IMG/VR virus record: IMGVR_UViG_3300020437_000003
Coordinates: 81,972 to 145,971 of that record
DNA from: a virus
Reading direction: 5' to 3' (one strand)
DNA length: 64,000 bases
In this document: in pieces, positions 26,011 through 46,831 of the stretch
How the letters are laid out: each line of letters begins with the position of its first letter
How positions within the stretch are numbered: position 1 is the stretch's first letter
Notes under the pieces: generated by a model
The model's input: the letters and a program-made list of their open reading frames with translations, nothing else
Database searches by the model: none
Told to the model about the DNA's origin: nothing
Translations under genes and position numbers: made by a program

Positions 26011-26238
26011 ATGAATTTTAATCATTTGATGAAAAAGGCAGAACTTAGGGATAAATGTGGTGATTTAGATACATGTTGCTACTATGTTCCACGTGGCCCT
26101 GTAAGGACTATGCTGGGTGAAAACGTACATCTCACAATGGTCTGTAAGCGCTGTGCAAAGCGAAAAGATGTATTTTTGACAAAAGAAGAATACTTTACAC
26201 AACAAAACTTAATTCATAAGGAGACAGGATATGTTTAA
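26011..26238 (+). CDS. Small Cys-rich protein
   Basis: I use the ATG at 26011, preceded by AGAGGT, 10 bases after the reductase stop. The 75-residue product has CGDLDTCC near 16-23 and CKRCAKRK near 47-54, together a likely zinc ribbon. It overlaps the GroES-like gene by eight bases. Function unknown. Confidence 0.65.
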   Translation: MNFNHLMKKAELRDKCGDLDTCCYYVPRGPVRTMLGENVHLTMVCKRCAKRKDVFLTKEEYFTQQNLIHKETGYV

Positions 26239-26500
26239 TCCAGTTAACAGGTATATACTTATTAAAATGCCGCCCAAGCAAACAGAGACAAATTCGGTTG
26301 TATTACTACCAGAGGATTACAAGCCTGAAGAACAAAGATATTCTGAAGTTACTGTAGTTAAAGCTGCTAGTGATGTTAGATTTGATTTGCATCAAAACAA
26401 TAAAATCATCATTGATCGCTCGATGGTAGAGCAAATTACTATTGGCAGTACTAATTATGATGTAATTTTAGACAACTATGTTATAGGAATTACTGAATAA
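26231..26500 (+). CDS. GroES-like co-chaperonin
   Basis: The 89-residue product fits the GroES/gp31 fold: N-terminal NPVNRYILIKMPP, a loop with TETNSVVLLPEDY (about 18-30) equivalent to the mobile loop whose hydrophobic tripeptide docks to GroEL, a strand EVTVVKA, and a C-terminal NYVIGITE. It is slightly shorter than GroES (97). T4 encodes a GroES replacement (gp31) for folding its capsid protein; here a phage GroEL is also present at 45245, so the pair may work together. Confidence 0.7.
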   Translation: MFNPVNRYILIKMPPKQTETNSVVLLPEDYKPEEQRYSEVTVVKAASDVRFDLHQNNKIIIDRSMVEQITIGSTNYDVILDNYVIGITE

Positions 26501-26516
26501 AATAAAGTAATATGTA

Positions 26517-27437
26517 ATGGATAAGAATTTCTACAATGAGGCTTCCGCCAAGAAGCTTGGGTGGGAACCTTCTTGGTTTGGAGAGAAATATTTTGATGAC
26601 AAATTAGTCAGAGAAATTAAAAAATGGCAGAGAGCAAGAAACCTAACAGCGGATGGCCTATGCGGACCTGCGACATTTAGAAGACTGTGGACTGAGAGAC
26701 AGTCCGAAATTACTAATTACAAGCCTGAAAGCAAACACTTCTCCAATTATATTGTTTACAACGGTGATTTTGTACCAATTGATTGGGACAAGTTTGTCTT
26801 GTGGTCCGAGAAGGGTGGGATAGAGACACCGGCTGGTAATTACTACGATTATTCCGGCCGACCAAAAAGACAAATCAGATATTTTGTTAATCATTGGGAT
26901 GTCTGCTTAAACTCTAAATCTTGTCAAAATGTGCTCAATCGACGAGGAGCATCAGTTCATTTTCTTATCGATAACGATGGAACTATCTATCAAACTATGG
27001 ATCTTCAACACGCAGCTTGGCATGCTGGTTCAAATAGAACTAACAGACCTTCTGTCGGTGTTGAAATATCAAACGCTTATTATTTAAAATATCAAAACTG
27101 GTATACTAAACACGGCTTTGGTGAACGCCCTGTCATTGACGATGCTTGGGTGCACGGTGAAAAGCTTGAACCATTTACTGGGTTTTACCCTGTTCAGCTT
27201 GAAGCGTTAAAGAAACTTTGGGAAGCGATTCATCACGCAACAAATATCCCGTATCAAACACCCTTAAACCAGTTTGGTAGTACATCAACTAAATACGAGC
27301 AGCAGGTCGCTTATGGCAAGTTCTCTGGCTTTGTAAGTCATTATCACGTTAGTAAAAGAAAGATAGATTGTGCCGGTTTAGATATAAAAAGTCTATTAGA
27401 TGAAATATCTTGCACCAGTGAGGTGTTAGATGAATGA
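26517..27437 (+). CDS. N-acetylmuramoyl-L-alanine amidase endolysin
   Basis: The 306-residue product has an N-terminal peptidoglycan-binding helical repeat (LVREIKKWQRARNLTADGLC then GPATFRRLW, residues about 29-59). An Amidase_2 domain follows, with the metal-binding FVNHWDVC, the SVHFLIDNDGTIYQ strand pair and HAAWHAGSN (about 162-170), then VGVEISN. It cleaves the bond between sugar and peptide in the cell wall at lysis. No signal peptide is visible, so it probably needs a holin, which I did not identify. The next gene overlaps by four bases and encodes a secreted protease. Confidence 0.9.
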   Translation: MDKNFYNEASAKKLGWEPSWFGEKYFDDKLVREIKKWQRARNLTADGLCGPATFRRLWTERQSEITNYKPESKHFSNYIVYNGDFVPIDWDKFVLWSEKGGIETPAGNYYDYSGRPKRQIRYFVNHWDVCLNSKSCQNVLNRRGASVHFLIDNDGTIYQTMDLQHAAWHAGSNRTNRPSVGVEISNAYYLKYQNWYTKHGFGERPVIDDAWVHGEKLEPFTGFYPVQLEALKKLWEAIHHATNIPYQTPLNQFGSTSTKYEQQVAYGKFSGFVSHYHVSKRKIDCAGLDIKSLLDEISCTSEVLDE

Positions 27438-27949
27438 TGTTTGTCAATTTATTATTTCTGATGATGGGACTACAGTCAGCAAACTACGCTGAGATAGTGA
27501 GGACTCGCACGCACGAATGGCAGATGGCACCCGGTATAACAGTATGCAACAATTCTGGTGTGCATAGTTATCGTGTTTCTCAGTCTGTAAAATACTGGGA
27601 AAGACTTGGCTATAAATTTGATTACATTAGATACGATGACAGTATTAGTTGCGGTGAGCCCAGATATGGTGAGATTATTATAACGTTGCCAAATCAAGAA
27701 TTTGACTTTGGAAATCATTTGGCTTCCACAAGGATTACAATCTCAAACAAAACAAAAGAAATTGTTAAGGCAAAAATATTTGTATTTCCTAAAACTGCTA
27801 ATAAAGAAAGAGTCATTGAGCACGAATTAGGACACGCTCTTGGTTGGCCACATATCAATCAGCCCTTTCATATAATGAACTCTAATTGGCACACCGGCGG
27901 CCATAATTCAAGTGGTTTGAAACTTTTCTATAAAAATTATGTGGATTAA
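27434..27949 (+). CDS. Secreted metzincin-type zinc protease
   Basis: The 171-residue product begins with a hydrophobic signal-like segment (residues 2-15). It carries HELGHALGWPH (130-140), the extended HExxHxxGxxH zinc motif, followed by HIMN (146-149), which fits the metzincin Met-turn. Overall it looks like a minimal matrixin- or archaemetzincin-like protease. Overlapping the endolysin gene suggests joint expression at lysis, perhaps to digest envelope proteins. I know of few such proteases in T4-like phages. Confidence 0.75.
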   Translation: MMFVNLLFLMMGLQSANYAEIVRTRTHEWQMAPGITVCNNSGVHSYRVSQSVKYWERLGYKFDYIRYDDSISCGEPRYGEIIITLPNQEFDFGNHLASTRITISNKTKEIVKAKIFVFPKTANKERVIEHELGHALGWPHINQPFHIMNSNWHTGGHNSSGLKLFYKNYVD

Positions 27950-27964
27950 AGTTATAATATTTTA

Positions 27965-28831
27965 ATGAAGTTTGAATACGATAATATCGTGATTGGCAGC
28001 GATTTAAAATCTTTATTATTTGCATTTATCAATCAATACCCAATTTTCTTCACAGAGCAAAACAAGCCACATCAATTTGATTTCTTTGTTGACTATCACA
28101 ATGACGGTTCCAACAGTTTTAAATCCTTTAACAATATTTATAAGTTTGGAATACAAAAGATTGATATGTGGGAAAGGTTATATTTTCTATTGTCTATGCA
28201 AGGACTATTGCCACTCGCAGATATTTGTGATACAATAAGATATGATGGCGAAAGATTAGTTTGTTCAACAGAGTATTCAAAATTATGCGAGATAAAATTT
28301 AAAAATTGTTTTTATGGTGGGGATAATAAAACATACAAATTAATTAATTTAAAGGAGCCCAAAAATGTTAGATATAAGGTCTACGATAAAATTGCTTTTA
28401 CATCAGGTGGCAAACACGATATCGACTACTTCCAGACAGACGATGATTTTGTTAGCAAAGTATGGTTTTTCTCAAGTGACAGAATTTGCGGGAATACTGG
28501 TGTTAAAGATGCTTATGTTTTATCAACACTCACTTATGAGCAGTTGAATGATCCGTCATTTACTAACACAATGGCAAGATTTAAGCTATTATCGATTATG
28601 AAAGAGAACGGGATGCGGGGCAAACAAAACGGCTTTACTAAGAATGGAACACCGCGACACTATGATTTCAAGGCTCACAATATTGAACGCAAAAAATTAA
28701 AGATAGAGCAGCCACATTGGATTGAGAATGATCGAATAAAAAAAATTAATTCCGATGTGTCTAAATTATTAAATCAAATCAATCATGATGTTTTGATGAA
28801 CTATGAGTATCTAAATGGAAACAAGCTTTAG
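27965..28831 (+). CDS. Conserved hypothetical protein, possible Rossmann-like start
   Basis: The 288-residue product begins with a strand-turn-helix (YDNIVIGSDLKSLLFAF, 5-21) resembling a dinucleotide-binding start but lacking the GxGxxG triplet. Later segments include FGIQKIDMWERLYFLLSMQG and DTIRYDGERLVC. It overlaps the next gene, a sugar nucleotidyltransferase-like protein, by 17 bases, so the two may act together. No catalytic residues can be named. Confidence 0.5.
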   Translation: MKFEYDNIVIGSDLKSLLFAFINQYPIFFTEQNKPHQFDFFVDYHNDGSNSFKSFNNIYKFGIQKIDMWERLYFLLSMQGLLPLADICDTIRYDGERLVCSTEYSKLCEIKFKNCFYGGDNKTYKLINLKEPKNVRYKVYDKIAFTSGGKHDIDYFQTDDDFVSKVWFFSSDRICGNTGVKDAYVLSTLTYEQLNDPSFTNTMARFKLLSIMKENGMRGKQNGFTKNGTPRHYDFKAHNIERKKLKIEQPHWIENDRIKKINSDVSKLLNQINHDVLMNYEYLNGNKL

Positions 28832-29702
28832 GCTACATATGGCTGGGATTATCCCCATAGCTAATATTAAAACAGATCACGATAACCCACTGCCAGAGGT
28901 TATGTTACCGGTTGACAATGGCTTCACCGCCATACAGAAGTCGGTGTATGAATGTGCACTGGCTGGTTGTAGCACAATATGGATTGTTGCTAATGATGAT
29001 ATGGCGCCAATTATACGTCACACAGTTGGTGATTGGATATATGACCCGGTTTATTACAATAGAATGTCAAAATTCTCAAGCCAAGAAAGAAAAGAGATAC
29101 CTATTTACTACGTTCCTATTCACCCGAAGGACAGAGACAGAAGAGACTCTTATGGATGGTCGGTCCTTTGTGGCCAGTTAACAGCTTGGCATACAGCTAA
29201 CAAAATATCGTCTTGGTTAACGCCAGATAAGTATTATGTATCATTTCCGTTAGGTTTTTTCGATTTTTCGGTCGTTAGGGAAAATAGAAAACTAATTCGA
29301 GACAAGAAAAACAACTTTTTCTTTACATTTAATAACAAAAACATTAAAAATGATTTGCCACTTTCATTTACAATGTTTGGAGAGGATTTTAAAAAATGCA
29401 GAAAGCACATCAACAGAGAAACCACAAGGGAGTTTTTACCCCCTTCACCCGACCAGCCTTTTCCTTCGGAAAAACTCCCCTTGAAGGAGAGGTGGACGGC
29501 TCGCCACTTCCCTTTGAGCGTTGTTTTCCATTCGGTGATGACGAACAGCAAGACGACGAAGATTGAAACTCCGTGGTTTTATGATGCACACCAGTGGACA
29601 CAGTATAAAGAATATATGTCCTCCGATAATCTTATTAAAAAGCCTTATTCAGAACTGATTAGACCACATACGCACGAAAAGTTTCCTTTTGAAGAAATTT
29701 AG
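28815..29702 (+). CDS. Nucleotidyltransferase-like protein (GalU-type N-terminus)
   Basis: The 295-residue product has GIIPIAN (12-18), PLPEVMLPVDNGFTAIQKSV (about 25-44) and CALAGCSTIWIVAND, matching the layout of sugar-phosphate nucleotidyltransferases (PKEMLPV then VEE-AGI). The usual GxGTR nucleotide loop is not intact. The C-terminal half is basic and unlike the family. Start could be the ATG at 28815 or at 28839; neither has a strong ribosome binding site. It may relate to surface-sugar chemistry together with the phosphomannomutase at 48797. Confidence 0.45.
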   Translation: METSFRLHMAGIIPIANIKTDHDNPLPEVMLPVDNGFTAIQKSVYECALAGCSTIWIVANDDMAPIIRHTVGDWIYDPVYYNRMSKFSSQERKEIPIYYVPIHPKDRDRRDSYGWSVLCGQLTAWHTANKISSWLTPDKYYVSFPLGFFDFSVVRENRKLIRDKKNNFFFTFNNKNIKNDLPLSFTMFGEDFKKCRKHINRETTREFLPPSPDQPFPSEKLPLKERWTARHFPLSVVFHSVMTNSKTTKIETPWFYDAHQWTQYKEYMSSDNLIKKPYSELIRPHTHEKFPFEEI

Positions 29703-29704
29703 AC

Positions 29705-29738
29705 TTGCAATGTACGGTCATATTGATTATACTATTTA
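29705..29738 (+). promoter_or_regulatory. Sigma-70-like promoter with ACTATTTA motif
   Basis: TTGCAA (29705-29710), 17 bp, TATACT (29728-29733). The octamer ACTATTTA (29731-29738) overlaps the -10 box, so this polymerase gene could be read by both the early and the putative late system. It lies 26 bases before the ATG. Confidence 0.65.
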
Positions 29739-29763
29739 AATACATTTATTTCAGGAGGGATGT

Positions 29764-32700
29764 ATGGCAGAGCGGGTTTACTCTAAAATTAAATTTGTAG
29801 GACTGCACGCGCACAGTGTGGCTGGTTCTATCTTTGATGCTATTGGATATCCACAGGATCATATGGATTTTGCATATGAGAACGGATGTGAAGCACTAGC
29901 ACTAACAGATCACGGTAATATGAACGGGCTAGCTTATCAGGTGTTGCATGCCAAGAAAATGCAAGAGGCCGGTAAAGAGTTCAAGCCGATTTTTGGTTGT
30001 GAAGCATATTTCACTCCCTCCATTACAGAGTGGCGCGATGCCTATGAGCAAGCTATGGCAGACAAGAAGCGCGCCCGTTCAATCAAGAAAGACGCTCAAT
30101 CTGGCGCTACCGTTGAGGACGAGGGCAATAGTAAACAAGTTCAAGATATTTTACGTCGCCGGCGTCACCTTGTCCTGCTAGCGCAGAATCAAACTGGGCT
30201 GAACAATCTATTTAAGTTGGTATCCGAATCATATCAACCGGAGAATTTTTACCGCTACCCACGTATTGACTATGCGCTATTGGAAAAGTACAATGAGGGC
30301 ATCATCGCTTCTTCTGCTTGTCTTGGCGGGGTGTATGCAGGTAACTACTGGGAAAATCGAGAGGAAGGCGATGAAGCCGTGCTTGAAGCTATGCGTGAAA
30401 CAACAGCACGTATGGTGGACATTTTCGGTGATCGCTGGTATGCCGAGATCCAGTGGAATAATATTAAAGAGCAACATGAATTGAACAAATATGTAATTCA
30501 AGTTGCCAAAGAGTTTGGCGTTGGACTGGTTTCTACAGCCGATAGCCATTACCCCAACCCTGACGCTTGGAAGGACCGTGAGCTTTACAAGCGTCTTGGT
30601 TGGCTTGGCAAAGGCACTCCATCTTGGGCTGAAGGCGAATCAGAGTTGCCAGATGGCGTCGAAGAGATTGGTTACGAGCTATACCCTAAGAATGGGGATC
30701 AGATGTGGGAGAGTTACAAGCAATACTCTAAGGAACAAGGTTTTGATTATGATGATGACTTGGTTTTGCAAAGTATTGAAGAAACGCACCGTATCGCCTT
30801 TGAGCGCATTGAAAAGTTTTTGCCGGATAATACCGTTCGTTTGCCTGAATTCGTCGTTCCAGCAGGGTTTACGGCCACGCAAGCACTTGTAAACTATGCG
30901 CTTGAGGGACTAAAAGACAAAGGACTTCATACAAACAAAGAATATACCGATCGTCTGCGTCAAGAACTCAACGTTATTGATGACCGAGGATTCTCAAAGT
31001 ATTTCTTAACAATGAAGTCCATTGTTGATGTGGCAACTGATATGATGCTCACAGGCCCCGGTCGAGGATCTGCTGCAGGTTCGTTAGTTGCATACGCTCT
31101 TAATATCACAACAGTTGACCCGATTAAACACGGACTGCTGTTCTCTCGGTTTTTGCGATCAGACGCAACAGACTATCCAGATATCGATTATGATGTGTCT
31201 GATAGTATGACCTTGAAGGAGAAGCTGGTCGAAATGTGGGGTGAGGACTGTGTTGCTCCCATTTCTAATTGGAATACTCTGCAACTCAAGTCACTGATCA
31301 AAGATATTTCAAAATTGTACAACATCGAATTTACAGAAGTTAATACTGTAACCTCTATTATGATTCGAGAGGCTACACCCGCCGCTAAGCAGAAACACGG
31401 CATTCGAGCCGGTGTTTATAGTCCCACGTGGGAAGAGGTGATTGAATTCTCGCCAACATTGCGTGCATACCTTGATAAGTATCCAGCGGTTAAAACACAC
31501 GTTGAAGGTCTGGTTGGTCAGGTTCGTTCTTGTTCTCGACATGCTGGCGGTGTGGTCATCGCAGAGGACCTTGATAAGAGTATGCCCTTAATTAATTCAG
31601 GCGGCGTCCGTCAGGCTCCGTGGGCTGAAGGTCAGAACGTCAGGCACCTCGAACCGATGGGATTTATTAAGTTCGACTTACTCGGTCTCTCTACGCTCAA
31701 GATGATGGAAGGTGCTATTTATCACATCCTCAAGCGTCATCACGGAGTTGAGGAGCCAACCTTCGCTCAAGTGCGCGAATATTACGAAAAGAACTTACAC
31801 CCTGATGTAATCGATTTGAATGATCAGAATGTGTATAAAAATATCTTTCATAAGGGTAAATGGGCAGGTATCTTCCAGTTCACAGAGCACGGAGCACAAC
31901 AGTTCTGTACTCGAGTGAAGCCAACCAACATCATTGATGTGTCAGCTATCACATCTATTTATCGTCCGGGTCCACTAGCTGCTAATGTACACGACGAATA
32001 TGTTGAGGCAAAGGAAAGCCCACACTATATCCAGTATCTAAATGAAGACGCTCGCGAAATCACTGAGGAAACTTTTGGCTTTCTAATCTTTCAAGAACAG
32101 ATTGCACTGCTTGCTCACAAGCTTGGCGGCTTAACACTTGATGAAGGTAATATGCTTCGTAAAGTGTTGACAAAGAAGGGTACGGGTAAAGGCTCAGTGA
32201 AGAATAAACTTCATAGTAAGTTTATTGATGGATGCGTATCCAAGAAGATCCCACGAGATGAAGCGCAAGCTCTTTGGGATAAGTTTGAATATTTCTCTGG
32301 ATACGGTTTCAATAAGTCTCACGCCGTAAGTTATTCAATTATCTCCTACCAGTGTGCTTGGCTATTCAACTACTACCCTGCTGAATGGATGGCAGCTTTC
32401 TTGGACAAAGAGCCAGAATCTCGTAAGGAAAAAGCAATCAACATTGCCAAGAAATATGGATTCGAGATTGCCGCCTTAGATATTAATAAATCTGGTACTG
32501 TCTGGGAGATTAGTGACGATGGTAAAACACTTATTCAACCATTGACATCGATTAAGGGCCTAGGTATGGCAGCCATCGAGCAAGTGTTGGAAAATAGACC
32601 ATTCATGAATGCCGAAGATCTTCTATTCCGCGAAGATATTTCGTATAGCAAACTCAATAAGAAAGCGCTCGATGCACTTTGCCGCGGCGGTGCACTAGAC

Positions 32701-33198: not shown

Positions 33199-33203
33199 AA
33201 AAT

Positions 33204-33806
33204 ATGAACGTAATGAGATATTATAGCCCGCTTCTCAAAGAGCCAGAGCTAAAAAATGAACCTGTCATTGTTAGGATTAATAAATTCGACGAAGCCACAG
33301 CAAAAGCTTTTTCAACAGCAATTATGAAGGCTCAAAACACAGGCCAGAACATAATACCAGTTATTATCGACAGTTATGGTGGTCAAGTTTATAGTTTGAT
33401 GTCAATGATATCCGATATCAAACACTCCAAAGTTCCAGTGGCAACAATAGTTCAAGGCAAGGCGATGTCTTGCGGTGCTATATTGTTTAGTTTTGGTGCT
33501 GAAGGTCATAGATATATGGATCCTGATTCGACGCTTATGATTCATGATGTTAGTTCTATGGGCTGGGGCAAAGTCGAAGAGATTAAAGCATCTGCTGAGG
33601 AAACTGATCGTCTTAATACGAAGATATATCATATGATGGCGGAAAACTGCGGTCATCACTCAGACTATTTTCTCGATATTGTGCACGATAAGGGGCATTC
33701 TGATTGGTTTTTAGAGCATGACGAGTGCCTGAAGCATAATTTAGCTAATCACAGCTACGTCCCAGACTTTAGTGTATCTATCAAGGTTGAATTTGGACTT
33801 CATTAA
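33204..33806 (+). CDS. ClpP-like serine protease, complete triad
   Basis: The 200-residue product has the ClpP fold: IDSYGGQVYSLMSM (56-69), GKAMSCGA with Ser89, LMIHDV with His114, and SDWFL with Asp167 in the position of the third catalytic residue. The N-terminus is short and lacks a processing peptide. No phage Clp ATPase is seen, so it may use a host unfoldase, or may act as a capsid-maturation protease as ClpP relatives do in some phages. It starts six bases after dnaE. Confidence 0.88.
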   Translation: MNVMRYYSPLLKEPELKNEPVIVRINKFDEATAKAFSTAIMKAQNTGQNIIPVIIDSYGGQVYSLMSMISDIKHSKVPVATIVQGKAMSCGAILFSFGAEGHRYMDPDSTLMIHDVSSMGWGKVEEIKASAEETDRLNTKIYHMMAENCGHHSDYFLDIVHDKGHSDWFLEHDECLKHNLANHSYVPDFSVSIKVEFGLH

Positions 33807-33840
33807 TCACTTAGCTCTACTTATATATGAGGGCTAACAA

Positions 33841-34554
33841 GTGTCAAATATTGATATCATAAGATGGAAAAGACTTATTAACGAGTTGACATTTTTAAAT
33901 GAAGAAGCTGAGTTAGTAGACTCTATAATTTACGAGTATAATAAGCACTTTCAAGCTTATTACGAGGAATTTTGTAGAAGAAACAATATCGATATCGATA
34001 AATTGAATAGAGAAAATCACGATAAGATTACGGAACTCTATTCAATAAATGAAGACAAAGAAACTGACGAGCAAAAAGTAATAGATATTGACCCCGAACA
34101 CGATAACGAAAATTTACCTTCAACATTTGCAAATTCACCGAACAATAATAAACAAACTGAATATGAGATGACTCAAGAAGAGCTTGAGATGCACGAGTCA
34201 TTTGTGAAGCTCTTTCGAGCGTTGGCATTAAAATTACATCCAGATAAGCTTAGTTCTTCCTTGACAACTGAAGAACGTGATGATATGATTGATATGTTCA
34301 ATAAAGCTAAAGAAGCTTTAGATGAAAGAAAATATTTTGTGTTGCTTGATTTAGCTTCCAAGTTTAAAATTAAGAGTCCTAAAAATTATAAACAGCAAAT
34401 CCGCTGGATGAAAAAAGAACTAAAAATGATGAAAGAACAAGTTAGCAAAAAGAAAACAACATATAATTATTCATTCTCTGAATGCGAAACTGATGAACAG
34501 AAAGACAATCTGATTCGTAAGTTTATCAAACATCTTTTCAATATAAACGTTTAG
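33841..34554 (+). CDS. J-domain (DnaJ-like) protein
   Basis: The start is a GTG at 33841. The 237-residue product has a helical N-terminus and an acidic, Asn-rich linker (70-108). A J-like domain follows: FVKLFRALALKLHPDK, with the diagnostic HPD at 133-135, and a following helix (MFNKAKEAL, about 152-160). It lacks the Gly/Phe and zinc-finger regions of full DnaJ. It could recruit the host DnaK to phage substrates. A basic helical C-terminus follows. Neighbouring ClpP and the co-chaperonins suggest a protein-quality set. Confidence 0.75.
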   Translation: MSNIDIIRWKRLINELTFLNEEAELVDSIIYEYNKHFQAYYEEFCRRNNIDIDKLNRENHDKITELYSINEDKETDEQKVIDIDPEHDNENLPSTFANSPNNNKQTEYEMTQEELEMHESFVKLFRALALKLHPDKLSSSLTTEERDDMIDMFNKAKEALDERKYFVLLDLASKFKIKSPKNYKQQIRWMKKELKMMKEQVSKKKTTYNYSFSECETDEQKDNLIRKFIKHLFNINV

Positions 34555-34562
34555 GAGGCAAC

Positions 34563-35549
34563 TTGATTACAGATATTGTTTTGGGCATACAGCACGGTGA
34601 TGAGGGTAAAGGAAAGGTAACTCATCATTTACTTAAGAATGGCGACTACACACATTGCATACGCTTTAACGGTGGGTGTAACGCGGGCCACACTATCTTT
34701 CACAACGATAAGAAATTTGTTACCCACCATATTCCAGCATCGGTATTCTTTGGGATCCCGGCGATCATTGGGCCCGGATGTGTGGTTAACATTGACAAGT
34801 TTCTTAAAGAGCTAAACTATCTAGCAGAAAACGGGATTGACATTGAGAACAATGTTAAGATTGCTAGAAACGCTCATATTATTACTAAAGAACACGTAAC
34901 CGAAGATTCTAAAGACTATAAGATTGGCACCACTAAGTCTGGTAATGGTCCTGCGTATAGAGATAAGTTTCACAGATCAGGTGTTCGTGCCGAGAACGTA
35001 CCGCTGCTAGCTCCTTTTATTGTGGATATGCAAGAAGAATTATACGGTGGTGAGGAATCAGTTATTCTAATGGAAGGGGCCCAAGGCTTTTGGCTTGATG
35101 TGGATTGGGGTGATTACCCATTTGTGACAAGTAGCAACTGTGGTGTTGGTGCAGCCATCAATAATGGGATTGATCCTCGATCAATTCGTAATGTGTGGGG
35201 TGTTGCAAAAGTTTACGAAACTTATGTTGGAATGAAAAAATTTCAGCCAGAAGACAAAATATTTGAGACTATTCAAAAAGCAGGTTCAGAATTTGGTGCA
35301 ACGACCGGCCGCGTTCGGCAATGTAACTGGCTTGACTTTGAGAAACTTACTAGAGCTATTCGTATGAATGGAGTAAACAAGCTGATCTTTAATAAAGTTG
35401 ATGTACTACGTGAAGTTAAAAGTTGGGGTATGAAAAATCCAGACGCTTTCTTTGCTGATGGTGAAGACGGCTTTATGAAATTTATCACCGACAATGCCCC
35501 AGAATGTGTAGATGAAATTTTCTTCTCTGCATCCCCAAAAACTATTTGA
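34563..35549 (+). CDS. purA: Adenylosuccinate synthetase (PurA-like, short form)
   Basis: This enzyme makes adenylosuccinate from IMP, aspartate and GTP. Start is the TTG at 34563 after AGGAGG. The 328-residue product has the GTP loop HGDEGKGK with the catalytic Asp13, NAGHT with His43, GTTKSGNGPAYRDK, MEGAQGFWLDVDWG, YPFVTSSN and GATTGRVRQ. It is about 100 residues shorter than E. coli PurA, similar to archaeal and phage PurZ forms. Typical PurZ, which makes a 2-aminoadenine precursor, has Ser at the Asp13 position; Asp here favours ordinary PurA, though a PurZ0-type activity is not excluded. Confidence 0.9.
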   Translation: MITDIVLGIQHGDEGKGKVTHHLLKNGDYTHCIRFNGGCNAGHTIFHNDKKFVTHHIPASVFFGIPAIIGPGCVVNIDKFLKELNYLAENGIDIENNVKIARNAHIITKEHVTEDSKDYKIGTTKSGNGPAYRDKFHRSGVRAENVPLLAPFIVDMQEELYGGEESVILMEGAQGFWLDVDWGDYPFVTSSNCGVGAAINNGIDPRSIRNVWGVAKVYETYVGMKKFQPEDKIFETIQKAGSEFGATTGRVRQCNWLDFEKLTRAIRMNGVNKLIFNKVDVLREVKSWGMKNPDAFFADGEDGFMKFITDNAPECVDEIFFSASPKTI

Positions 35550-35574: not shown

Positions 35575-35597
35575 TTAGGTACACTTAGGAGGTAAAA

Positions 35598-36784: not shown

Positions 36785-36785
36785 A

Positions 36786-39095: not shown

Positions 39096-39104
39096 GAGAT
39101 TATT

Positions 39105-39461: not shown

Positions 39462-39724
39462 ATCGCCAGCAACGTAGAGCAATGAAAAAGCATGCAGGTA
39501 AAAAGGCCACAGATGCAATGGCTAACAAGGTCGCACTATTTGGCCAACTACCTCAATCTTGTAATGCTTGTGAGAAAGAGTTTGACAAGAAAGACAAAGA
39601 GATGGTAAAATCTTGGAGTGTCGTTGTGAAGCAAGAAGTTGTAAGACTGTTTTGTCCTGATTGTATTGAAAAAACGAGGGAGGTGATAAGTGAGCGTAAC
39701 GAGACTATCGACCGAGGGCCTTAA
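39458..39724 (+). CDS. Small zinc-ribbon-like protein
   Basis: The start is a GTG overlapping the previous stop. The 88-residue product begins MNRQQRRAMKK, a basic start common in small phage proteins. It has CNAC (about 35-38) and CPDC (about 67-70), giving a probable zinc ribbon. It overlaps the thioredoxin-like gene by 35 bases. Function unknown. Confidence 0.6.
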   Translation: MNRQQRRAMKKHAGKKATDAMANKVALFGQLPQSCNACEKEFDKKDKEMVKSWSVVVKQEVVRLFCPDCIEKTREVISERNETIDRGP

Positions 39725-40061
39725 AAAGATATTAGGCGGAGAAGTCAAGGAAGATGCTACCTGTGTGATTAAGTTTTATTCTAATGGTTGTCATTTGTGT
39801 CATAACTTGAAAGATTATTATGAAGATATATCGAATAATGATCAATTTTCTGACATCCATTTTTTTGCTTTTAATGTTGACAACTATCCCGACATTGAAA
39901 AGCAATTAAAGTTCAATGGCGTACCAACGATATCCCTAGTGAAAACTTATACAGAAGACGTAAGTCCTAAAGTTCGGATTTTAAAAGATCCAGATAAGCC
40001 CAATGAGCAAACTTGGTATCGCTCTAGGGATATAAAACAATTTATAACGGAGATGAAATGA
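39690..40061 (+). CDS. Thioredoxin/glutaredoxin-like protein
   Basis: The 123-residue product starts at GTG behind GGGAGG. A strand leads to FYSNGCHLCHNL with a CHLC redox pair, followed by FNVDNYPDIEKQLKFNGVPTI containing the cis-proline of the thioredoxin fold. It could reduce the phage class II ribonucleotide reductase through that enzyme's C-terminal Cys pair. That link is inferred. Confidence 0.8.
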   Translation: MSVTRLSTEGLKKILGGEVKEDATCVIKFYSNGCHLCHNLKDYYEDISNNDQFSDIHFFAFNVDNYPDIEKQLKFNGVPTISLVKTYTEDVSPKVRILKDPDKPNEQTWYRSRDIKQFITEMK

Positions 40062-41116
40062 TGCCACTTACAAATTCCAGAGAAATGTTATCATATGATG
40101 ATGTTCTTTTGGTACCACAATATTCTGATATTCGTAGCAGGTCCGAGGTCAGTACTACAACCGATCTAGGCAACGGCTTGGTCTTGAATCTGCCTGTTCT
40201 GGCCTCACCTATGGATACTATTTCTGAGACAGCTATGGCTGTCTCTCTGGGTCGTCTTGGCGGCGCCGCTATCATTCACAGGTATAACAGCGCCGAGAAT
40301 CAATGCCGTATGGTATCTATGGCCTGCGAGATTGCAAAGACAAAGTATAATATGTCTATTGACATTGGTGCAGCAGTCGGTATTTCAGGAGACTTCGTTG
40401 AAAGAGCGACAGCGCTAATTGATGCGGGTGCAACATTTTTATGTGTTGATGTTGCTCACGGCCACCATATTTTAATGAAGGAGGCTATTACAAAAATTCG
40501 ACAAGCGGCTGGCAGTAATGTTCATATCATGGCTGGTAATGTTGCTACACTAGAGGGGATCAACGATCTAGCAGATTGGGGTGCTGACTCTATTCGTTGC
40601 AACATTGGTGGTGGTTCTATTTGTTCGACTAGGGTACAGACGGGCCATGGTGTCCCGGGCCTGCAAACCATCTTAGATTGCTCGCAAACCGACCGAAATG
40701 TGACAATTATCGCTGATGGTGGAATTAGAAACTCTGGTGATATTGTAAAAGCTTTCGCCTGTGGCGCTGACGCGGTTATGTGCGGCTCTCTTTTGGCAGG
40801 AACAGATGAAAGTCCCGGTAAGATTCAGGAAGACTTGAATGGCTCTAGATGGAAAACTTATCGAGGTATGGCCTCAAAAGAGGCACAAGTTAGCTGGCGA
40901 GGTAATTATTCTTCATTTGAGGGTGTTTCTGCAAGGGTTCCATATAGAGGATCGGTTGTCAAGATTCTTCAAGACTTAGAACGTGGTATTCGTTCTGGCT
41001 TCTCATACAGTGGTGCTAGAACGCTCACAGAGTTTCAGTCAGTAGCAGAACTAATCAAGCAGACGCCGGCCGGAATGGGCGAGAGCAGAACGCATATATT
41101 AGGGAGAAAGTGGTGA
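40058..41116 (+). CDS. IMP dehydrogenase / GMP reductase family enzyme, no CBS domains
   Basis: The 352-residue barrel protein has LSYDDVLLVPQYS, ASPMDTISE, IIADGGIRNSGD and GGGSICSTR (about 187-195) with the catalytic Cys, then YRGMAS and VPYRGSV. The regulatory CBS pair of bacterial GuaB is absent. The ASPMDT and VLLVP segments favour IMP dehydrogenase, while length and an early SRSEV segment also fit GMP reductase. It would act at the IMP branch point of purine synthesis together with the phage PurA. It overlaps the thioredoxin-like gene by four bases. Confidence 0.88.
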   Translation: MMPLTNSREMLSYDDVLLVPQYSDIRSRSEVSTTTDLGNGLVLNLPVLASPMDTISETAMAVSLGRLGGAAIIHRYNSAENQCRMVSMACEIAKTKYNMSIDIGAAVGISGDFVERATALIDAGATFLCVDVAHGHHILMKEAITKIRQAAGSNVHIMAGNVATLEGINDLADWGADSIRCNIGGGSICSTRVQTGHGVPGLQTILDCSQTDRNVTIIADGGIRNSGDIVKAFACGADAVMCGSLLAGTDESPGKIQEDLNGSRWKTYRGMASKEAQVSWRGNYSSFEGVSARVPYRGSVVKILQDLERGIRSGFSYSGARTLTEFQSVAELIKQTPAGMGESRTHILGRKW

Positions 41117-41439
41117 GCGACGAGCCAAAATACGGTAGAAACGATAAGCGTATTGTTTTTACTGATACGGATCATCGGCATGCCCAACTGTTGGTGCGTT
41201 TACGTACCGACGGTATGAAACAAGCACAGTTTTTTCGTAGTTTAATCACAGGTTACATTGAACAAGATGATAGAATAGTCAGTTTTTTTGATGATATTAA
41301 AGATCAATCTATAAAGAGAAAAGATAAATCGAATAGGTTGCGTAAATCTGGGCAAAAACTTCTAAATGACTCAGGCTTTTCCGATGAGCAGATTCAAGAT
41401 ATTTTTGATTTAATTGCAGAGGAACACCCAGAGCTATGA
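41113..41439 (+). CDS. Ribbon-helix-helix-like small protein
   Basis: Two GTG codons are adjacent; I prefer 41113 for its spacing from GGGAG. The 108-residue product has a strand-like IVFTDTDHR and then LVRLRTDGMKQAQFFRSLI, which resembles a ribbon-helix-helix DNA-binding start. The rest is charged and helical. It overlaps the next gene, a sigma-region-4-like protein, by four bases, so both may be transcription factors. Confidence 0.5.
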   Translation: MSDEPKYGRNDKRIVFTDTDHRHAQLLVRLRTDGMKQAQFFRSLITGYIEQDDRIVSFFDDIKDQSIKRKDKSNRLRKSGQKLLNDSGFSDEQIQDIFDLIAEEHPEL

Positions 41440-41687
41440 AAAACTTTGATGGTCTCAGACCATGTTCCAGAAAATGTATAGAACTTAATACTAGTTGTCC
41501 TGTGGAAAGTTGTAGAATGTGGATTGATTACCCAGATGAGAAAAATTGTACGCTCATTTCAATCAATGAAAACGACTCAATGACCCTTAGAGAAATAGGT
41601 GAGCGACTGTCAATTTCGTTTGCCAGAGTTAAACAAATAGAGCAAAAAGCTCTTATGAAGTTACGCCGCTTAGGCGTAGAATGGTAA
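41436..41687 (+). CDS. Cys-rich protein with sigma-70 region-4-like helix-turn-helix
   Basis: The 83-residue product has Cys at 10, 14, 21, 26 and 38 in a possible metal or iron-sulphur site, and a C-terminal MTLREIGERLSIS-FARVKQIEQKA segment (49-72), matching sigma region 4.2 that reads the -35 box. It lacks regions 2 and 3, so it is not a full sigma factor. It could act like the T4 late co-activator or a divergent phage sigma component that reads the ACTATTTA elements. That link is a hypothesis. Confidence 0.65.
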   Translation: MKNFDGLRPCSRKCIELNTSCPVESCRMWIDYPDEKNCTLISINENDSMTLREIGERLSISFARVKQIEQKALMKLRRLGVEW

Positions 41688-41713
41688 TTTTATTAGTTTT
41701 TGTAAAATACAGG

Positions 41714-41721
41714 ACTATTTA
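41714..41721 (+). promoter_or_regulatory. ACTATTTA motif upstream of acidic protein
   Basis: The octamer lies in the 92-base gap between the sigma-like gene and the acidic protein gene, 59 bases before the latter's ATG. Confidence 0.4.
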
Positions 41722-41779
41722 TTACTGACTTATTTTGATGCCAAAATTGTAAATTTACACATTTTAAAGGAGAAATATA

Positions 41780-42394
41780 ATGGCTCGCAAAACACTTTTA
41801 ACCGAGGCTGAACTTCGTAGCTTTATGAAGCTTGCTGAACTTAGACCCATCGGTGATGATAAAATTAGAGAAATGTATGGTCAAGATGAAGACGATACTA
41901 TGGAAGAGGGTGAAAACGTTCAAGACGATGATCCTGCCGGCGAAGCTGGTGTAACTTCCGAAGAAATGGATATGGATATGGGCGATGATGACGATGATGC
42001 CCCAAAAATGGATATGGACATGGATATGAAAATGGACGCCCCTGCTGGCGGTGCCAAGATGGTGTCTATCGATGACTTTATGGGAGCGCTTGAATCTGCC
42101 CTCGAAGACGTTTTAGATGATGAAGTTGAGGTTGATATGGATGACGATGCTGAAATGGATATGGATCGTGAGGATGAGCCCGGTGGTATGGAAATGGACG
42201 CCGCGGTAGATGCGATGGATGACGGTGACGATGATCCTATGATGGAAGAAGAACACGATGATGATATCAATGAAGAAGAAGTTGTCAATGAAATCGCACG
42301 TCGAGTTGCTGAGAGACTTCAGGCAAAAAACGAAAATGCAGAGATGATTGATCAACTCGCAGAAAGAATTTTAAACAGATTAACATCAAAATAG
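41780..42394 (+). CDS. Highly acidic Met/Asp-repeat protein, candidate prohead core protein
   Basis: The 204-residue product starts after AAAGGAG. A basic N-terminus (MARKTLLTEAELRSFMKLAEL) is followed by about 130 residues of Asp/Glu with repeated MDMD units, then a helical C-terminus (VVNEIARRVAERLQAKN). Extreme acidity and short helical ends are seen in scaffold and prohead-core proteins, and the ACTATTTA motif upstream suggests late expression. No scaffold motif can be proven. A terminator follows the stop. Confidence 0.6.
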   Translation: MARKTLLTEAELRSFMKLAELRPIGDDKIREMYGQDEDDTMEEGENVQDDDPAGEAGVTSEEMDMDMGDDDDDAPKMDMDMDMKMDAPAGGAKMVSIDDFMGALESALEDVLDDEVEVDMDDDAEMDMDREDEPGGMEMDAAVDAMDDGDDDPMMEEEHDDDINEEEVVNEIARRVAERLQAKNENAEMIDQLAERILNRLTSK

Positions 42395-42423
42395 TTGACA
42401 AAACTGTTGTGAGTCATTATAAT
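42395..42423 (+). promoter_or_regulatory. Strong sigma-70-like promoter abutting a terminator hairpin
   Basis: TTGACA (42395-42400), 17 bp, TATAAT (42418-42423), both perfect consensus. It begins at the base after the acidic gene's stop codon. The start point near 42430 falls inside the first arm of the hairpin that follows. Confidence 0.88.
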
Positions 42424-42457
42424 AACCATTAGCAGCAATGCTAGTGGTTATTTTTTT
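42424..42457 (+). terminator. Terminator hairpin overlapping a transcription start
   Basis: AACCATTAGCA (42424-42434) pairs with TGCTAGTGGTT (42439-42449), an 11-base-pair stem with one G-U pair and a four-base GCAA loop, followed by A and seven T. It would stop transcripts from the acidic gene. Transcripts starting from the abutting promoter lack part of the first arm and should escape. Confidence 0.82.
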
Positions 42458-42467
42458 CGGGGGTATT

Positions 42468-42875
42468 GTGGATCCATTTTGGTTATATGCGCTAGTTTTT
42501 TTGTTTGGATATGTCACATGTCAAACGTTTTATTTTTTTAAGTCAACGAGGGTTTCACTTAAATTAATGAAATCAGGTAGAGTCATCTACTTATTGATGA
42601 TGGCAAAAGCAATGGAAAATTATAAAATTGCAGAAGAAGTAATGCTCACAAATCTTAAAGATTCTGAGAGTGATCAAATTGTTATTGATAGGTTTAAAAG
42701 AGGCGTAGAAGACGAAAGAAAAAGTTTTAAAAGTAAGAGTGTAATGTGGTTAATTAATAACACACCTCAAACATTTAGAGATATCATAGGATTTGATGAT
42801 TGGGATTCTGCAATGCAATACCTTGTTCTCCATCAAGAAGAGGCATATAAATTTTGGAGAATAGATAATGATTAA
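42468..42875 (+). CDS. Membrane-anchored protein of unknown function
   Basis: I choose the GTG at 42468, behind CGGGGG and after the terminator T run; an upstream ATG at 42438 lies inside the hairpin. The 135-residue product has an N-terminal transmembrane helix (PFWLYALVFLFGYV) followed by a basic, helical cytoplasmic part. It overlaps the ClpP-like gene by eight bases. Confidence 0.65.
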   Translation: MDPFWLYALVFLFGYVTCQTFYFFKSTRVSLKLMKSGRVIYLLMMAKAMENYKIAEEVMLTNLKDSESDQIVIDRFKRGVEDERKSFKSKSVMWLINNTPQTFRDIIGFDDWDSAMQYLVLHQEEAYKFWRIDND

Positions 42876-43500
42876 TAGAATATTGGATAGGATTGCAGGT
42901 GGTAAAAAGGTTAGTGACAAAGAAAAGAAACTTTTAGAAAGTGAACTTGAAAAACTACTTGCTTCTCCTCCGCAACCGGACTTGCGAGTGATAGGTTTGT
43001 TCTCTGATGTTTCAGACGACAAAATAGCTGAGTTGATACACGCGCTGATATATCTCGACGAGATTAACAGAATCACTGACGAAAATAGACCAGTAGAATT
43101 TTATATCTCAACGTATGGTGGCTCCGCTGATGATATGTTTGGGATGTATGATATAATGCGTGTAATAAGAGAGCGCACCCCAATTCAAACTATTGGTTTG
43201 GGCAAGGTTATGTCAGCAGGCGTCTTGTTATTAGCTGCCGGCACCAAAGGAAAGCGTTGTATTGGTAAAAACTGTAGAGTAATGGTTCACTCTGTTATTG
43301 GTGGTAGCCATGGCCCACTTCACAATCTTATAAATGAAATGGATGCCATCGAGCAGATACAAAAAATGTACAGTGACGCCCTCATAGCAGAGACCAACTT
43401 GACAAAGAAAGATTTAAAGAAGCTTCTGGAGAAGAAAGTAAATGTCTATTTATCTGCAGAAGAAGCGGTAGAACTAGGGATCGCAGACATTATTGTATAA
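42868..43500 (+). CDS. Second ClpP-like protease, Asn in place of catalytic Asp
   Basis: The 210-residue product has the ClpP signature: ISTYGGSADDMFGMYD (80-95), GKVMSAGV with Ser116, VMVHSV with His141, and YLSAEEAVELGIAD near the C-terminus. Where E. coli ClpP has the third residue Asp171, this protein has Asn192. It may have altered or weak activity. It is only distantly similar to the ClpP-like protein at 33204. It could pair with that protein or process virion proteins. Confidence 0.85.
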   Translation: MINRILDRIAGGKKVSDKEKKLLESELEKLLASPPQPDLRVIGLFSDVSDDKIAELIHALIYLDEINRITDENRPVEFYISTYGGSADDMFGMYDIMRVIRERTPIQTIGLGKVMSAGVLLLAAGTKGKRCIGKNCRVMVHSVIGGSHGPLHNLINEMDAIEQIQKMYSDALIAETNLTKKDLKKLLEKKVNVYLSAEEAVELGIADIIV

Positions 43501-43510
43501 GGAGTATGAA

Positions 43511-45187
43511 GTGTCAAATTATTTAAAAGATATGTTTATCGAGGTTCGAGAAAACACAAAAGAAGCCTCACCATTAAATGAATTGGAACAGATCATTGAT
43601 AGTGTTACCAAAGTGATTTACGATAAAGCTATTGTGTCCGAAAAGAAATCACGAGATTTAACGTTTAAACTTTCTATGATCCCTGAAATCGAAGTTTCAG
43701 AATTAGGCTGGTCTGATGTACGCACTCCCGATGGTGGAGGCGCGCCAGTTAAGGGTCGCGAACGTCAGCTTCTTGAGAGTTATTTAGAGAACATACTTGG
43801 TGCAGATTCTGTCCGCGGACTTAATTCGTTGCCTGAACAACTTAGTAAACTATCAAATTTTTATAACAATCCCGAACAATATCTTCAATCTGCGAAAACA
43901 AGATCTGCTAAGGTCCAACAGGCTGTATCAATGCTTGTTTTCTATAAAACGCTGACAAAAATCATTGCTAATTTCAACGCATCATCAGCCGGTTTCAGTT
44001 TTGAATCTTTCCTAGCAACACTATTAGATGGTGTTCAGGTGCCTGCCAATACGGGAACAATTGCAGATTTCTATGCTGGCGGTACAGATGGTGAGCCTAT
44101 CAGTCTTAAACTTTATAATGAAAAGAGCGTAGAGGTTGGAGGTAGTTTTGTTGATCTTGTCGGCGATTTATTAAACGATTCTAAAGACAATAGAATGACA
44201 TATCTTGTCGTTATGAAAAATCTTAAAGGAGAAGCGGAAAACTTAACAGGAAACCTAACTTTCTATCAGTTTGATTTCACTCTTGATAACATTATGGATA
44301 TTATTGGTGAATCGAAACCAGCATCCGCAGCATGTATTATCCTGCCACTTGAGGGCAACGAACTATCTGATGTTGAGGCACCTGAGCGGATTAGGGTAAC
44401 GACAGATATGGTTCAAGAGCTTTTTGTTCAAAACCTCAATGATTTAATTAATAATGATCAAATTGTTAATGCCATTGTTTCAAGTCCCTATTTCCAATAT
44501 GGTACTGATGAAATGTTTTCGATTGCAAGTTCATCCACCCCTGTTCGACGCTATGCTGACAAAAGAAAGAAATCCAATCGAGAGAATATGGAGCAAGTTC
44601 TCAGAGGTATTCCAGCGCTTGAGAACGCACAGGAGTTGGGGCAGGTTGTGTTAGCTATCTATTCTGCGCTAGACAAAGCTTCAGAACAAGTTGGAGAACT
44701 TCGCGCTGGACGAAAGGAAAAAATTGCACAAATCCTTCCATCTTTGTCAAGTTATCGTGTAACAAAAGGCAGCAAAGGTAAGGAAAGGTCCGCAGAGGCT
44801 GCAAACATTAATGCGGCCGCCGAGAGAAGTATTGAATATTATAATGGTATTAAAGGCAATAAAGAAGCTCAAAAGCAAGCATTGTTAAAATCAAATGGCT
44901 ATTTGAATGAAATGCAGTTTTCTCTTAACAGGTCAGAAGTATTGAATCTAGCTAAGCCTATGGCAACCCTTGAAGTTGGTGCTGCAGCAATTCAACAAAT
45001 GTTAGCTCAAACTACATCTTTACTTAATTCTGAAGTATTTGCTATCTTTGAGTCTCTTAGGGAGCTTTCTGATAACTTGAACGGGTTCTTTGCTAGTGGT
45101 TTAGCAGATACGGAAAAAGCAACTAGCGCGATTGGTGACGCACAAAATATCGAAACAAAGACAGAAAAAGTTAGAGACACCCAATAA
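43511..45187 (+). CDS. Conserved phage protein of unknown function
   Basis: I choose the GTG at 43511 (MSNYLKDMF), behind AAGGAG, giving 558 residues. A central segment (FESFLATLLDGVQVP then GTIADFYAGG and ISLKLYNEKSVEVGGSF, about 160-215) has Asp and Lys in an arrangement loosely like a PD-(D/E)xK fold, but the motif is not convincing. The C-terminal third is Ala/Gln/Asn-rich and helical. A promoter for GroEL follows. A virion role is as likely as an enzymatic one. Confidence 0.55.
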   Translation: MSNYLKDMFIEVRENTKEASPLNELEQIIDSVTKVIYDKAIVSEKKSRDLTFKLSMIPEIEVSELGWSDVRTPDGGGAPVKGRERQLLESYLENILGADSVRGLNSLPEQLSKLSNFYNNPEQYLQSAKTRSAKVQQAVSMLVFYKTLTKIIANFNASSAGFSFESFLATLLDGVQVPANTGTIADFYAGGTDGEPISLKLYNEKSVEVGGSFVDLVGDLLNDSKDNRMTYLVVMKNLKGEAENLTGNLTFYQFDFTLDNIMDIIGESKPASAACIILPLEGNELSDVEAPERIRVTTDMVQELFVQNLNDLINNDQIVNAIVSSPYFQYGTDEMFSIASSSTPVRRYADKRKKSNRENMEQVLRGIPALENAQELGQVVLAIYSALDKASEQVGELRAGRKEKIAQILPSLSSYRVTKGSKGKERSAEAANINAAAERSIEYYNGIKGNKEAQKQALLKSNGYLNEMQFSLNRSEVLNLAKPMATLEVGAAAIQQMLAQTTSLLNSEVFAIFESLRELSDNLNGFFASGLADTEKATSAIGDAQNIETKTEKVRDTQ

Positions 45188-45192
45188 ATAAA

Positions 45193-45221
45193 TTGACATT
45201 TTTCTTTTAATGATATATAAT
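45193..45221 (+). promoter_or_regulatory. Strong sigma-70-like promoter for groEL
   Basis: TTGACA (45193-45198), 17 bp, TATAAT (45216-45221), both perfect consensus, 24 bases before the groEL ATG. Confidence 0.88.
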
Positions 45222-45244
45222 ATTTACACAACTGAGAGGTATTA

Positions 45245-46831
45245 ATGAGTCGAGCATATGACGACAATCAATCATTACAACAAAAGATTATAACAGGAGC
45301 CAATGTTCTAGCAGACAACGTTGCCTCTACACTCGGCCCTCGCGGCCGAAATGTTCTGCTACAAGAAAAAGGCAAGAATCCATTTATTACCAAGGACGGT
45401 GTTACTGTTGCCGCGTTTGTTTCTCTTGATGATCCATTTGAAAACGCTGGTGCTCAAATCATTCGACAAGCAGCTATTGAAACTAACAACGGTGCTGGAG
45501 ATGGCACCACTACATCAACCGTGTTGGCTCGCTCTATTTTAACAGAAGCACAGAAATTTATTGCGTCTGGGGTTTCACCAATTGAGCTACAACGCGGCAT
45601 TGAGGCCTCTGTTAAACAAGTTGTCTTAAATCTGAAAGATATGGCGATACCGATTAATAGTCTTGAAGATGTTGAGCACATTGCCACTATATCGGCCAAC
45701 AATGATGCGTCCATTGGAAAACTCATTGCAATGGCTTTTGACCGGGTTGGCCATGATGGCTCAATTACAATTGAGGAATCAAATTCTATTGACACCTCCC
45801 TCGATATCACAGAGGGCTTTAGTTTTAATTCTGGGTATTGTGCCTCTGCTTTTGTTACAGATGATCGCAGGGCTGTAATGCATCACGATGATCCTATGAT
45901 ATTGGTAACCGATTATCGAATTACTTCGGTTGATCAAATCCTGCCTGTGCTTGAGACTGCAGCGCGCGAAGGTCGCCCATTGATTATTGTTTCTGAAGAC
46001 ATTGAAGGCCAAGCATTAGCAGCGTTAATTATGAATGCTATGCGAGGTACGATGAAGGTAGCTGCCATCAAAGCCCCCGGATACGGAGAGGAGCGTAGAA
46101 ACACATTGTCTGATTTGGCATTATCTGTAGGTGCAACATTTGTATCAAAGGAGAGCGGCAAGAAATTGCAAGATACCAAGATGATTGATTTTGGGACTTC
46201 TAAATTTGTTGAGTCAAGTAAAAATAGTACTATCTTTGTTGGTGGCAATGCCAATGTTGAAGTTATCGAAAGTAAAATTGACTCGTTAAAAGCAATTATG
46301 GAAGATACCGACTCTCTTGACGCTTGCAGAATGATACAAAATAGAATTACACGACTTGCATCCGGCGTAGCTGTCATCCGTGTTGGTGGAGCAACAGAAG
46401 TTGAAATGACCGAGAAAAAGCACAGGATTGAGGATGCACTAGAGGCTGTAAAAGCCGCACAAGATGAGGGTGTAGTGCCCGGTGGCGGGACAGCGTTATT
46501 ACGTGCTTGTCAAAAGATGGTTATTGCCACTGAAGATGGCCACCATGAGCAGATTAATGGCGCTGTCATTGTTAAGAATGCCTGTTATGCACCCATTAGA
46601 CAGATGGCTGAAAACGCTGGCTTGTCTCCTGACATTATTGTACAAGAAGTTTTGGATTCTGATACTAATATGGGCTGGAACTTTAGGAGTAACCAACTAA
46701 CAGATTTAACAAGTGATGGTGTCATTGATCCCGTGAAGGTTACACGTACTGCCCTGCAAAATGCCGCTAGTTGCGCCGGAACACTGATAACAACAAACTA
46801 CGGAATTGTTCAAACTGGGGCCGATGTATGA
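45245..46831 (+). CDS. groEL: GroEL-type chaperonin
   Basis: This ATP-driven folding chamber subunit is 528 residues, against 548 in E. coli. It has ASTLGPRGRNVLLQ (near 27-40), the ATP-binding GDGTTTSTV, the apical YGEERR, and the ATPase Asp in the segment EDALEAVKAA before EGVVPGGGTALL. The C-terminal Gly-Gly-Met repeat of bacterial GroEL is absent. Phage-encoded GroEL is uncommon. With the phage GroES-like protein it could replace or modify the host system for capsid folding. It has its own strong promoter. Confidence 0.96.
   Translation: MSRAYDDNQSLQQKIITGANVLADNVASTLGPRGRNVLLQEKGKNPFITKDGVTVAAFVSLDDPFENAGAQIIRQAAIETNNGAGDGTTTSTVLARSILTEAQKFIASGVSPIELQRGIEASVKQVVLNLKDMAIPINSLEDVEHIATISANNDASIGKLIAMAFDRVGHDGSITIEESNSIDTSLDITEGFSFNSGYCASAFVTDDRRAVMHHDDPMILVTDYRITSVDQILPVLETAAREGRPLIIVSEDIEGQALAALIMNAMRGTMKVAAIKAPGYGEERRNTLSDLALSVGATFVSKESGKKLQDTKMIDFGTSKFVESSKNSTIFVGGNANVEVIESKIDSLKAIMEDTDSLDACRMIQNRITRLASGVAVIRVGGATEVEMTEKKHRIEDALEAVKAAQDEGVVPGGGTALLRACQKMVIATEDGHHEQINGAVIVKNACYAPIRQMAENAGLSPDIIVQEVLDSDTNMGWNFRSNQLTDLTSDGVIDPVKVTRTALQNAASCAGTLITTNYGIVQTGADV

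Follow-up and report, generated by a model that had tools for sequence, protein, structure and literature searches.

We analysed a 64,000-base stretch of DNA (the window), which makes up bases 81972-145971, that is, the end, of the 145,971-base (~146 kb) virus record IMGVR_UViG_3300020437_000003. The virus is a myovirus with tail sheath, tube, baseplate hub and terminase genes. Five open reading frames (ORFs) lying within 21 kb of the window encode a GroEL chaperonin, a GroES-like protein, two ClpP-like peptidases and a J-like protein with an HPD motif. An earlier reading made from the letters of the window (the sequence-only reading) had named all five; our annotation confirmed them at the following coordinates, all on the plus strand (lengths in amino acids, aa):

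26231..26500, plus strand: putative GroES/Cpn10-like co-chaperonin, 89 aa (Pfam, AlphaFold2 (AF2), Foldseek, mobile-loop motif)
33204..33806, plus strand: ClpP-like serine peptidase 1 (ClpP1), 200 aa (PF00574, 7e-23; Ser89-His114-Asp167)
33841..34554, plus strand: J-like protein, 237 aa, with HPD133-135 between two helices (HPD in 18/18)
42868..43500, plus strand: ClpP-like serine peptidase 2 (ClpP2), 210 aa (PF00574, 4.5e-31; Ser116-His141-Asn192)
45245..46831, plus strand: GroEL, group I chaperonin large subunit, 528 aa (PF00118, 3e-65; PHROG groEL, 3e-139)

GroEL and a distant GroES-like protein

Judged by its sequence, the GroEL of the window is a group I chaperonin of full length: the PF00118 domain spans residues 22-519, and the protein passes the NCBIfam cut-offs for the GroEL subfamily. 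The ATP motif GDGTTT and D397 are invariant in 68 sequences, as are T29, D86, F203, L236, I262 and E385 (all 68/68), and M263 is found in 66/68. The hydrophobic apical groove is kept, with L233 and L258 mostly retained across the same sequences.

The 89-aa protein is predicted to adopt the Cpn10 beta-barrel fold. Its Pfam Cpn10 score lies just above the cut-off (22.9 bits against 21.1); it also matches the PHROG family co-chaperonin GroES and falls below the NCBIfam equivalog cut-offs. The AF2 model, built with 30 sequences, has a mean predicted local distance difference test score (pLDDT) of 89, lower only at the mobile loop, and its top 35 Foldseek matches in the PDB are all Cpn10-type proteins, T4 gp31 included, with template modelling (TM) scores of up to 0.70. 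The mobile loop, the low-confidence part of the model, follows a G-I/V-V/L-L-P pattern in which P27 is invariant and L26 nearly so among the 30 sequences. No match was obtained when this protein was used in a tblastn search for cultured phages.

Searching IMG/VR with GroEL yielded 105 relatives, of which 80 were kept (52-100% identity), and in 30 records the region spanning GroES and GroEL was retrieved and annotated. The genes usually run in the order RNR, GroES, amidase, two conserved proteins, DnaE, ClpP1, J-like protein, dUTPase, Dam, thioredoxin, IMPDH, small proteins, ClpP2, a 564-aa protein (w43493, starting at position 43493) and GroEL. As the sequence-only reading held, the virus encodes both halves of a chaperonin together with two proteins of the ClpP fold and one with HPD, and relatives conserve them jointly; with gene order kept in 30 related records, the joint occurrence of the five genes is far beyond chance. 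Among the 30 aligned loci, GroES and a ClpP at the ClpP2 position are each found in 30/30 (two ClpP2-position proteins that a script had labelled ClpP1 are counted with ClpP2), ClpP1 in 23/30 and the J-like protein in 18/30. The virus is a member of a T4-like lineage with 30 or more uncultured relatives, and a DNA-level search for cultured phage relatives of the window returned no match.

GroES lies upstream of GroEL at a distance of 11.5-20.2 kb in the relatives and ~19 kb in the window. We found it in 34 of 47 records, all 34 of which extend at least 16.4 kb upstream of GroEL; the 13 records without it all have less than 14.75 kb there. Because both genes are present in every sufficiently long record (34/34), the pair is obligate as far as is visible.

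The best explanation overall, and one that we consider fairly probable, is that this uncultured T4-like myovirus lineage carries its own complete group I chaperonin, a cognate GroEL-GroES pair. GroEL would act as the ATP-driven ring, and the highly diverged 89-aa protein encoded 19 kb upstream would be its cognate GroES lid, docking via the conserved hydrophobic mobile loop. The pair may fold phage proteins that fold badly in the host, much as gp31 and GroEL do for the T4 head.

Alternatively, the GroES-like protein may serve the host GroEL, as T4 gp31 does, and the phage GroEL may be lidless like the chaperonins of phiEL, OBP and AR9, GroEL homologues that function without a co-chaperonin (PMC7185714, PMC9598537). 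The 11-20 kb between the two genes and their differing promoter type would suit such a division of labour. However, the chaperonins of those phages are far more diverged, with 25% given for phiEL in the literature, whereas the phage GroEL studied here shares ~44% identity with its bacterial counterparts and has retained the apical groove. The strict co-occurrence with a GroES-like protein (34/34 records) also departs from the lidless phiEL type, and the presence of Cpn10 in 8 of 12 other GroEL-bearing phage records favours a pair. Every one of the eight tested phage-collection records whose GroEL is at least 33% identical carries Cpn10, a 735-kb metagenomic assembly excepted, and the EL and PBS1 records have none. 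On this evidence, service to the host GroEL appears unlikely.

Promoters of groEL and the ClpP2 operon

Perfect TTGACA-17-TATAAT sites occur only three times in the window. They are listed here with the two further ORFs that accompany ClpP2:

42395..42423, plus strand: sigma-70 consensus promoter, 12/12, upstream of the w42438, ClpP2 and w43493 genes
42438..42875, plus strand: w42438, conserved small protein that is hydrophobic at its N terminus and whose gene comes first after the promoter (in 28/30 loci)
43493..45187, plus strand: w43493, 564 aa, a fast-evolving protein encoded between the ClpP2 and GroEL genes and showing the pattern E171...D192...SLK206
45193..45221, plus strand: sigma-70 consensus promoter, 12/12, immediately before groEL, its end 24 bases from the start of that gene
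60729-60757: third of the perfect sigma-70 promoters, immediately preceding the tRNA-Leu gene in a cluster of four tRNAs

The groEL promoter is perfect in 49/66 relatives and matches at 11/12 or better in 59/66, near position -51; of the shuffled sequences, 0.2% attain 11/12. Conservation amounts to 2.0 and 1.9 bits per base in the hexamers and 0.55 in the spacer, values of which only that of the -10 hexamer is independent, as the alignment was anchored on TTGACA. Upstream of w42438, the promoter of the ClpP2 operon is perfect in 17/28 relatives and reaches at least 11/12 in 22/28. At this level of at least 11/12, no promoter precedes GroES or the J-like protein, and one was found for ClpP1 in 1/25. 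On promoter sequence, GroEL and ClpP2 are a pair with matching control. From the dedicated consensus promoter we infer early expression of groEL, which is probably transcribed by the host RNA polymerase. GroES would instead be transcribed as part of a long series of replication and nucleotide genes that share its direction.

These promoters bear on the proposal of the sequence-only reading that the five genes form one coordinated set, a co-regulated quality-control module that seizes host folding and turnover. Such a module would account for five genes on one strand within 21 kb and for an order kept in 30 relatives. The same 21 kb, however, also holds the genes for DnaE, dUTPase, Dam, thioredoxin and IMPDH, and the chaperone genes are surrounded by replication and nucleotide genes in general (DnaE-type polymerase, RNR, dUTPase, IMPDH, Dam and others). 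ClpP1 is missing from 7/30 loci and the J-like protein from 12/30, while GroEL and GroES persist. Because a strong conserved promoter precedes groEL and the ClpP2 operon only, the five genes are not one regulon. We consider a single module quite improbable.

Several features of this region were observed in addition. A hairpin of 14 pairs with a T run after it (42421-42452) overlaps both the -10 end of the ClpP2 operon promoter and the annotated start of w42438; it possibly terminates the upstream gene and is fused to the promoter that follows, and the true start of w42438 may lie further downstream. A small protein encoded at 41436-41687, found in 27/30 loci, ends in a sigma-70 region 4 domain (PF04545, 1.5e-10) and could redirect the host RNA polymerase. 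In w43493, which has no significant match in Pfam, PHROG or NCBIfam, E171, D192 and the lysine of SLK206 are invariant in 21 aligned sequences and resemble the motif of PD-(D/E)XK nucleases.

ClpP-like peptidases, the J-like protein and neighbouring genes

ClpP1 and ClpP2 both belong clearly to the ClpP fold family. The Ser-His-Asp triad of ClpP1 is invariant (23/23). In ClpP2, the Ser and His are found in 30/30 sequences, and the third position is Asn in 25/30 and Asp in 5/30, the latter in divergent relatives. Both proteins lack the residues of the N-terminal axial loop, and both miss the NCBIfam clpP equivalog cut-off of 308.6 bits (61.7 and 83.5). At the positions that we take to form the docking pocket for Clp ATPases (M92, F112 and L114), ClpP1 carries the changes M92 to Q/E and L114 to D, and ClpP2 the changes F112 to K/R/Q and L114 to G/A. 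ATPases of the ClpX/ClpA type were not found in 12 records searched. The two proteins are thus probably ClpX-independent serine peptidases, which may clear or process phage or host proteins. The takeover of host turnover suggested by the sequence-only reading finds no backing here: the searched records contain neither an Hsp70 nor a ClpX/ClpA partner, and ClpX-docking features are absent from both ClpP-like proteins.

The AAA matches obtained instead included an AAA+ ATPase of MoxR type, as judged by eye, in G001, a near-identical relative (L167 739-1827, near 35.6 kb of that record), where it lies ~23 kb beyond GroEL. In jumbo phages, MoxR is reported to come with a vWA co-chaperone as its partner (PMC7824862). 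A further protease of the window, trypsin-like and of the serine type, is encoded at 53099-53890 (PF13365, 39.5 bits).

The names of the top PHROG matches of both ClpP-like proteins, 'head maturation protease' families, imply that they might be prohead proteases acting in capsid maturation. Neither protein reaches the NCBIfam cut-off of 120 bits for ClpP-related head proteases (60.5 and 55.9), and ClpP2 adjoins GroEL, not head genes. Moreover, a dedicated T4-type prohead protease (PF03420, S77) is encoded elsewhere in the genome near the T4-type portal (PF07230), and on this ground we reject a prohead function for the ClpP-like proteins, which we hold to be very unlikely. Nothing supports the large or unusual capsid that the sequence-only reading had envisaged: the head genes found are T4-type, and among near-identical relatives the longest measures 187 kb. 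The T4 genome is close to this size. A 514-aa ORF (L155:13699-15240) considered as the major capsid protein was rejected, having no PDB match and a repetitive, fibre-like consensus.

Another use of the lid would be to cap phage ClpP rings instead of, or besides, GroEL, as Cpn11/20/23 do on the chloroplast ClpP of Chlamydomonas. When the GroES-like family profile was compared with PDB sequences, the best match was indeed Cpn11 in the Chlamydomonas ClpP complex 7ekq (E 7e-7), the ClpP-like proteins are without axial loop and ClpX pocket, and a ClpP-fold protein accompanies GroES in 30/30 aligned loci. Cpn10 folds are all alike, however, ordinary GroES structures outrank 7ekq in the fold search, and the ClpP pockets for the IVL loop are not conserved, so that we give this capping role very little credence. 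A lid shared between GroEL and the ClpP ring or rings, making a virus-encoded hub that folds or degrades without a Clp ATPase and with GroEL and ClpP2 expressed early from matching promoters, strikes us as just as improbable.

The J-like protein is the weakest of the five calls, and its J domain is partial, with support limited to helix II, HPD and helix III. HPD is the sole contiguous invariant triplet across 18 aligned sequences, and the protein has its own conserved N- and C-terminal domains around the HPD hairpin. An hhalign comparison of the family profile with the E. coli DnaJ J domain gave a probability of 91% over helix II-HPD-helix III only, and the PDB matches of the profile are J domains, including that of Sec63, itself a J protein. 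In the AF2 model (pLDDT 80), helices 112-132 and 143-161 flank HPD. A Foldseek search of the PDB with the whole model found no match and was uninformative, being dominated by long helices; the PF00226 match stays below the cut-off (E 0.0095, 16.5 bits against 27.8), and tblastn with the J-like protein found no match among cultured phages. As no phage Hsp70 was found in 12 records searched, the partner of the J-like protein would be the host DnaK, which it probably recruits through the HPD loop for a phage-specific task, like Rki of phage RB43.

Several other genes of the window deserve mention. An amidase-type lysin (26517-27437) adjoins a putative zinc metallopeptidase (27434-27949) with an HELGHALGWPH motif and a weak matrixin match. 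The ORF at 17253-18446 matches part of a PHROG DNA polymerase family (1.5e-17) and could be a separate exonuclease domain, a DnaE polymerase being encoded also at 29764. A 328-aa adenylosuccinate synthetase homologue (34563-35549), present in only 5/30 related loci, together with the IMPDH gene at 40058-41116, suggests control of the purine pool. The aminoadenylate-synthetase name of its PHROG match raised the idea of a 2-aminoadenine (Z) genome, which we rejected, as the NCBIfam PurZ cut-off was missed. The homologue is PurA-like and not PurZ because it keeps the catalytic Asp (GDEGKGK), a position at which phage PurZ/PurZ0 have Ser (PMC12884076). Regarding the host, two contigs (L157 and L158) binned in Halobacteriovorax and Methylococcaceae metagenome-assembled genomes (MAGs) carry ClpP1 (67% and 56%), along with a phage helicase, a recombinase and other genes of the lineage. 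They are probably phage contigs inside MAG bins and give a weak hint of the host.

Weighing the proposed chaperonin pair against known systems

Several observations count against a cognate GroEL-GroES pair with early expression. In GroEL, the substrate groove has Ala in place of the E. coli Tyr203 in 63/68 sequences, and the protein ends in NYGIVQTGADV without the C-terminal GGM repeat tail, which is common but not essential. The Cpn10 similarity of the 89-aa protein is weak; the Pfam cut-off is passed in just 12/48 records, and because Pfam alone detects so few, the lid is easily missed. Matched dosage is not evident because GroES lies apart from GroEL and is without the same promoter, and promoter matches are no proof of early expression. 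The 735-kb metagenomic phage LR756503 has a GroEL at 41.6% and no detectable Cpn10. Pfam and PHROGs recognised no major capsid protein among the scanned ORFs.

The sequence-only reading had treated the possession of both chaperonin halves as exceptional. Since 8/12 GroEL-bearing phage records also carry Cpn10, cultured phages with both halves exist and the kind is already known. Both are encoded in one genome by Flavobacterium phage immuto, Elemovirus, Cellulophaga phi38:1 and Bacteroides DAC20, and by the Vibrio phages K364, pv27, VAP7 and 207E48.1; in several of the Vibrio phages the groEL and Cpn10 genes are far apart, as here. These eight phages differ from the lineage studied here in having a GroEL 33-43% identical, in having no detectable J domain and, for most of them, in lacking ClpP. 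Among the 12 records, ClpP is encoded in two, Vibrio pv27 and Myxococcus Mx1, and a DnaJ domain scored above the cut-off in one, the 735-kb LR756503. With GroEL, Cpn10 and ClpP, pv27 is the closest cultured combination seen. A study of virioplankton chaperonins by Marine et al. in ISME J in 2017 reportedly described GroEL and GroES as common in marine viral metagenomes, with both subunits on viral contigs. Southern Ocean viral genomes are reported to contain GroEL/GroES analogues often (PMC8407431).

Other systems share single components with this virus. T4 gp31 and RB49 CocO are co-chaperonins of the Cpn10 fold, in phages with T4-type head genes as here, but T4 relies on the host GroEL, whereas the phage of the window encodes its own. 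Rki of RB43 is an HPD protein likewise of 237 aa, with a C-terminal region unlike DnaJ and a J domain that engages the host DnaK (PMC3486835). The J domain of Rki is N-terminal, whereas the J-like protein has its HPD hairpin in the middle and shows no evident helix I. Jumbo phages have ClpP, DnaJ and MoxR genes, the same classes as found here; in the jumbo-phage survey, HSP60 and HSP10 occurred in separate phages, whereas in this lineage they are always together (PMC7824862).

New here are a lid that is cryptic, distant and obligate, conserved promoters dedicated to groEL and to the ClpP2 operon, and a pair of ClpP-like proteins without ClpX-docking features. Phage GroEL genes are frequently discussed as lidless, and the present lineage has a lid, a diverged and distant one. 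Its divergence and its distance from groEL cause profile searches to overlook it in most relatives, so that some other phages recorded as having GroEL only may be mis-scored. The dedicated promoter suggests that groEL belongs to the early genes and that its product is not only an assembly factor. ClpP1 and ClpP2, without ClpX-docking features, are candidates for ATPase-independent phage proteases.

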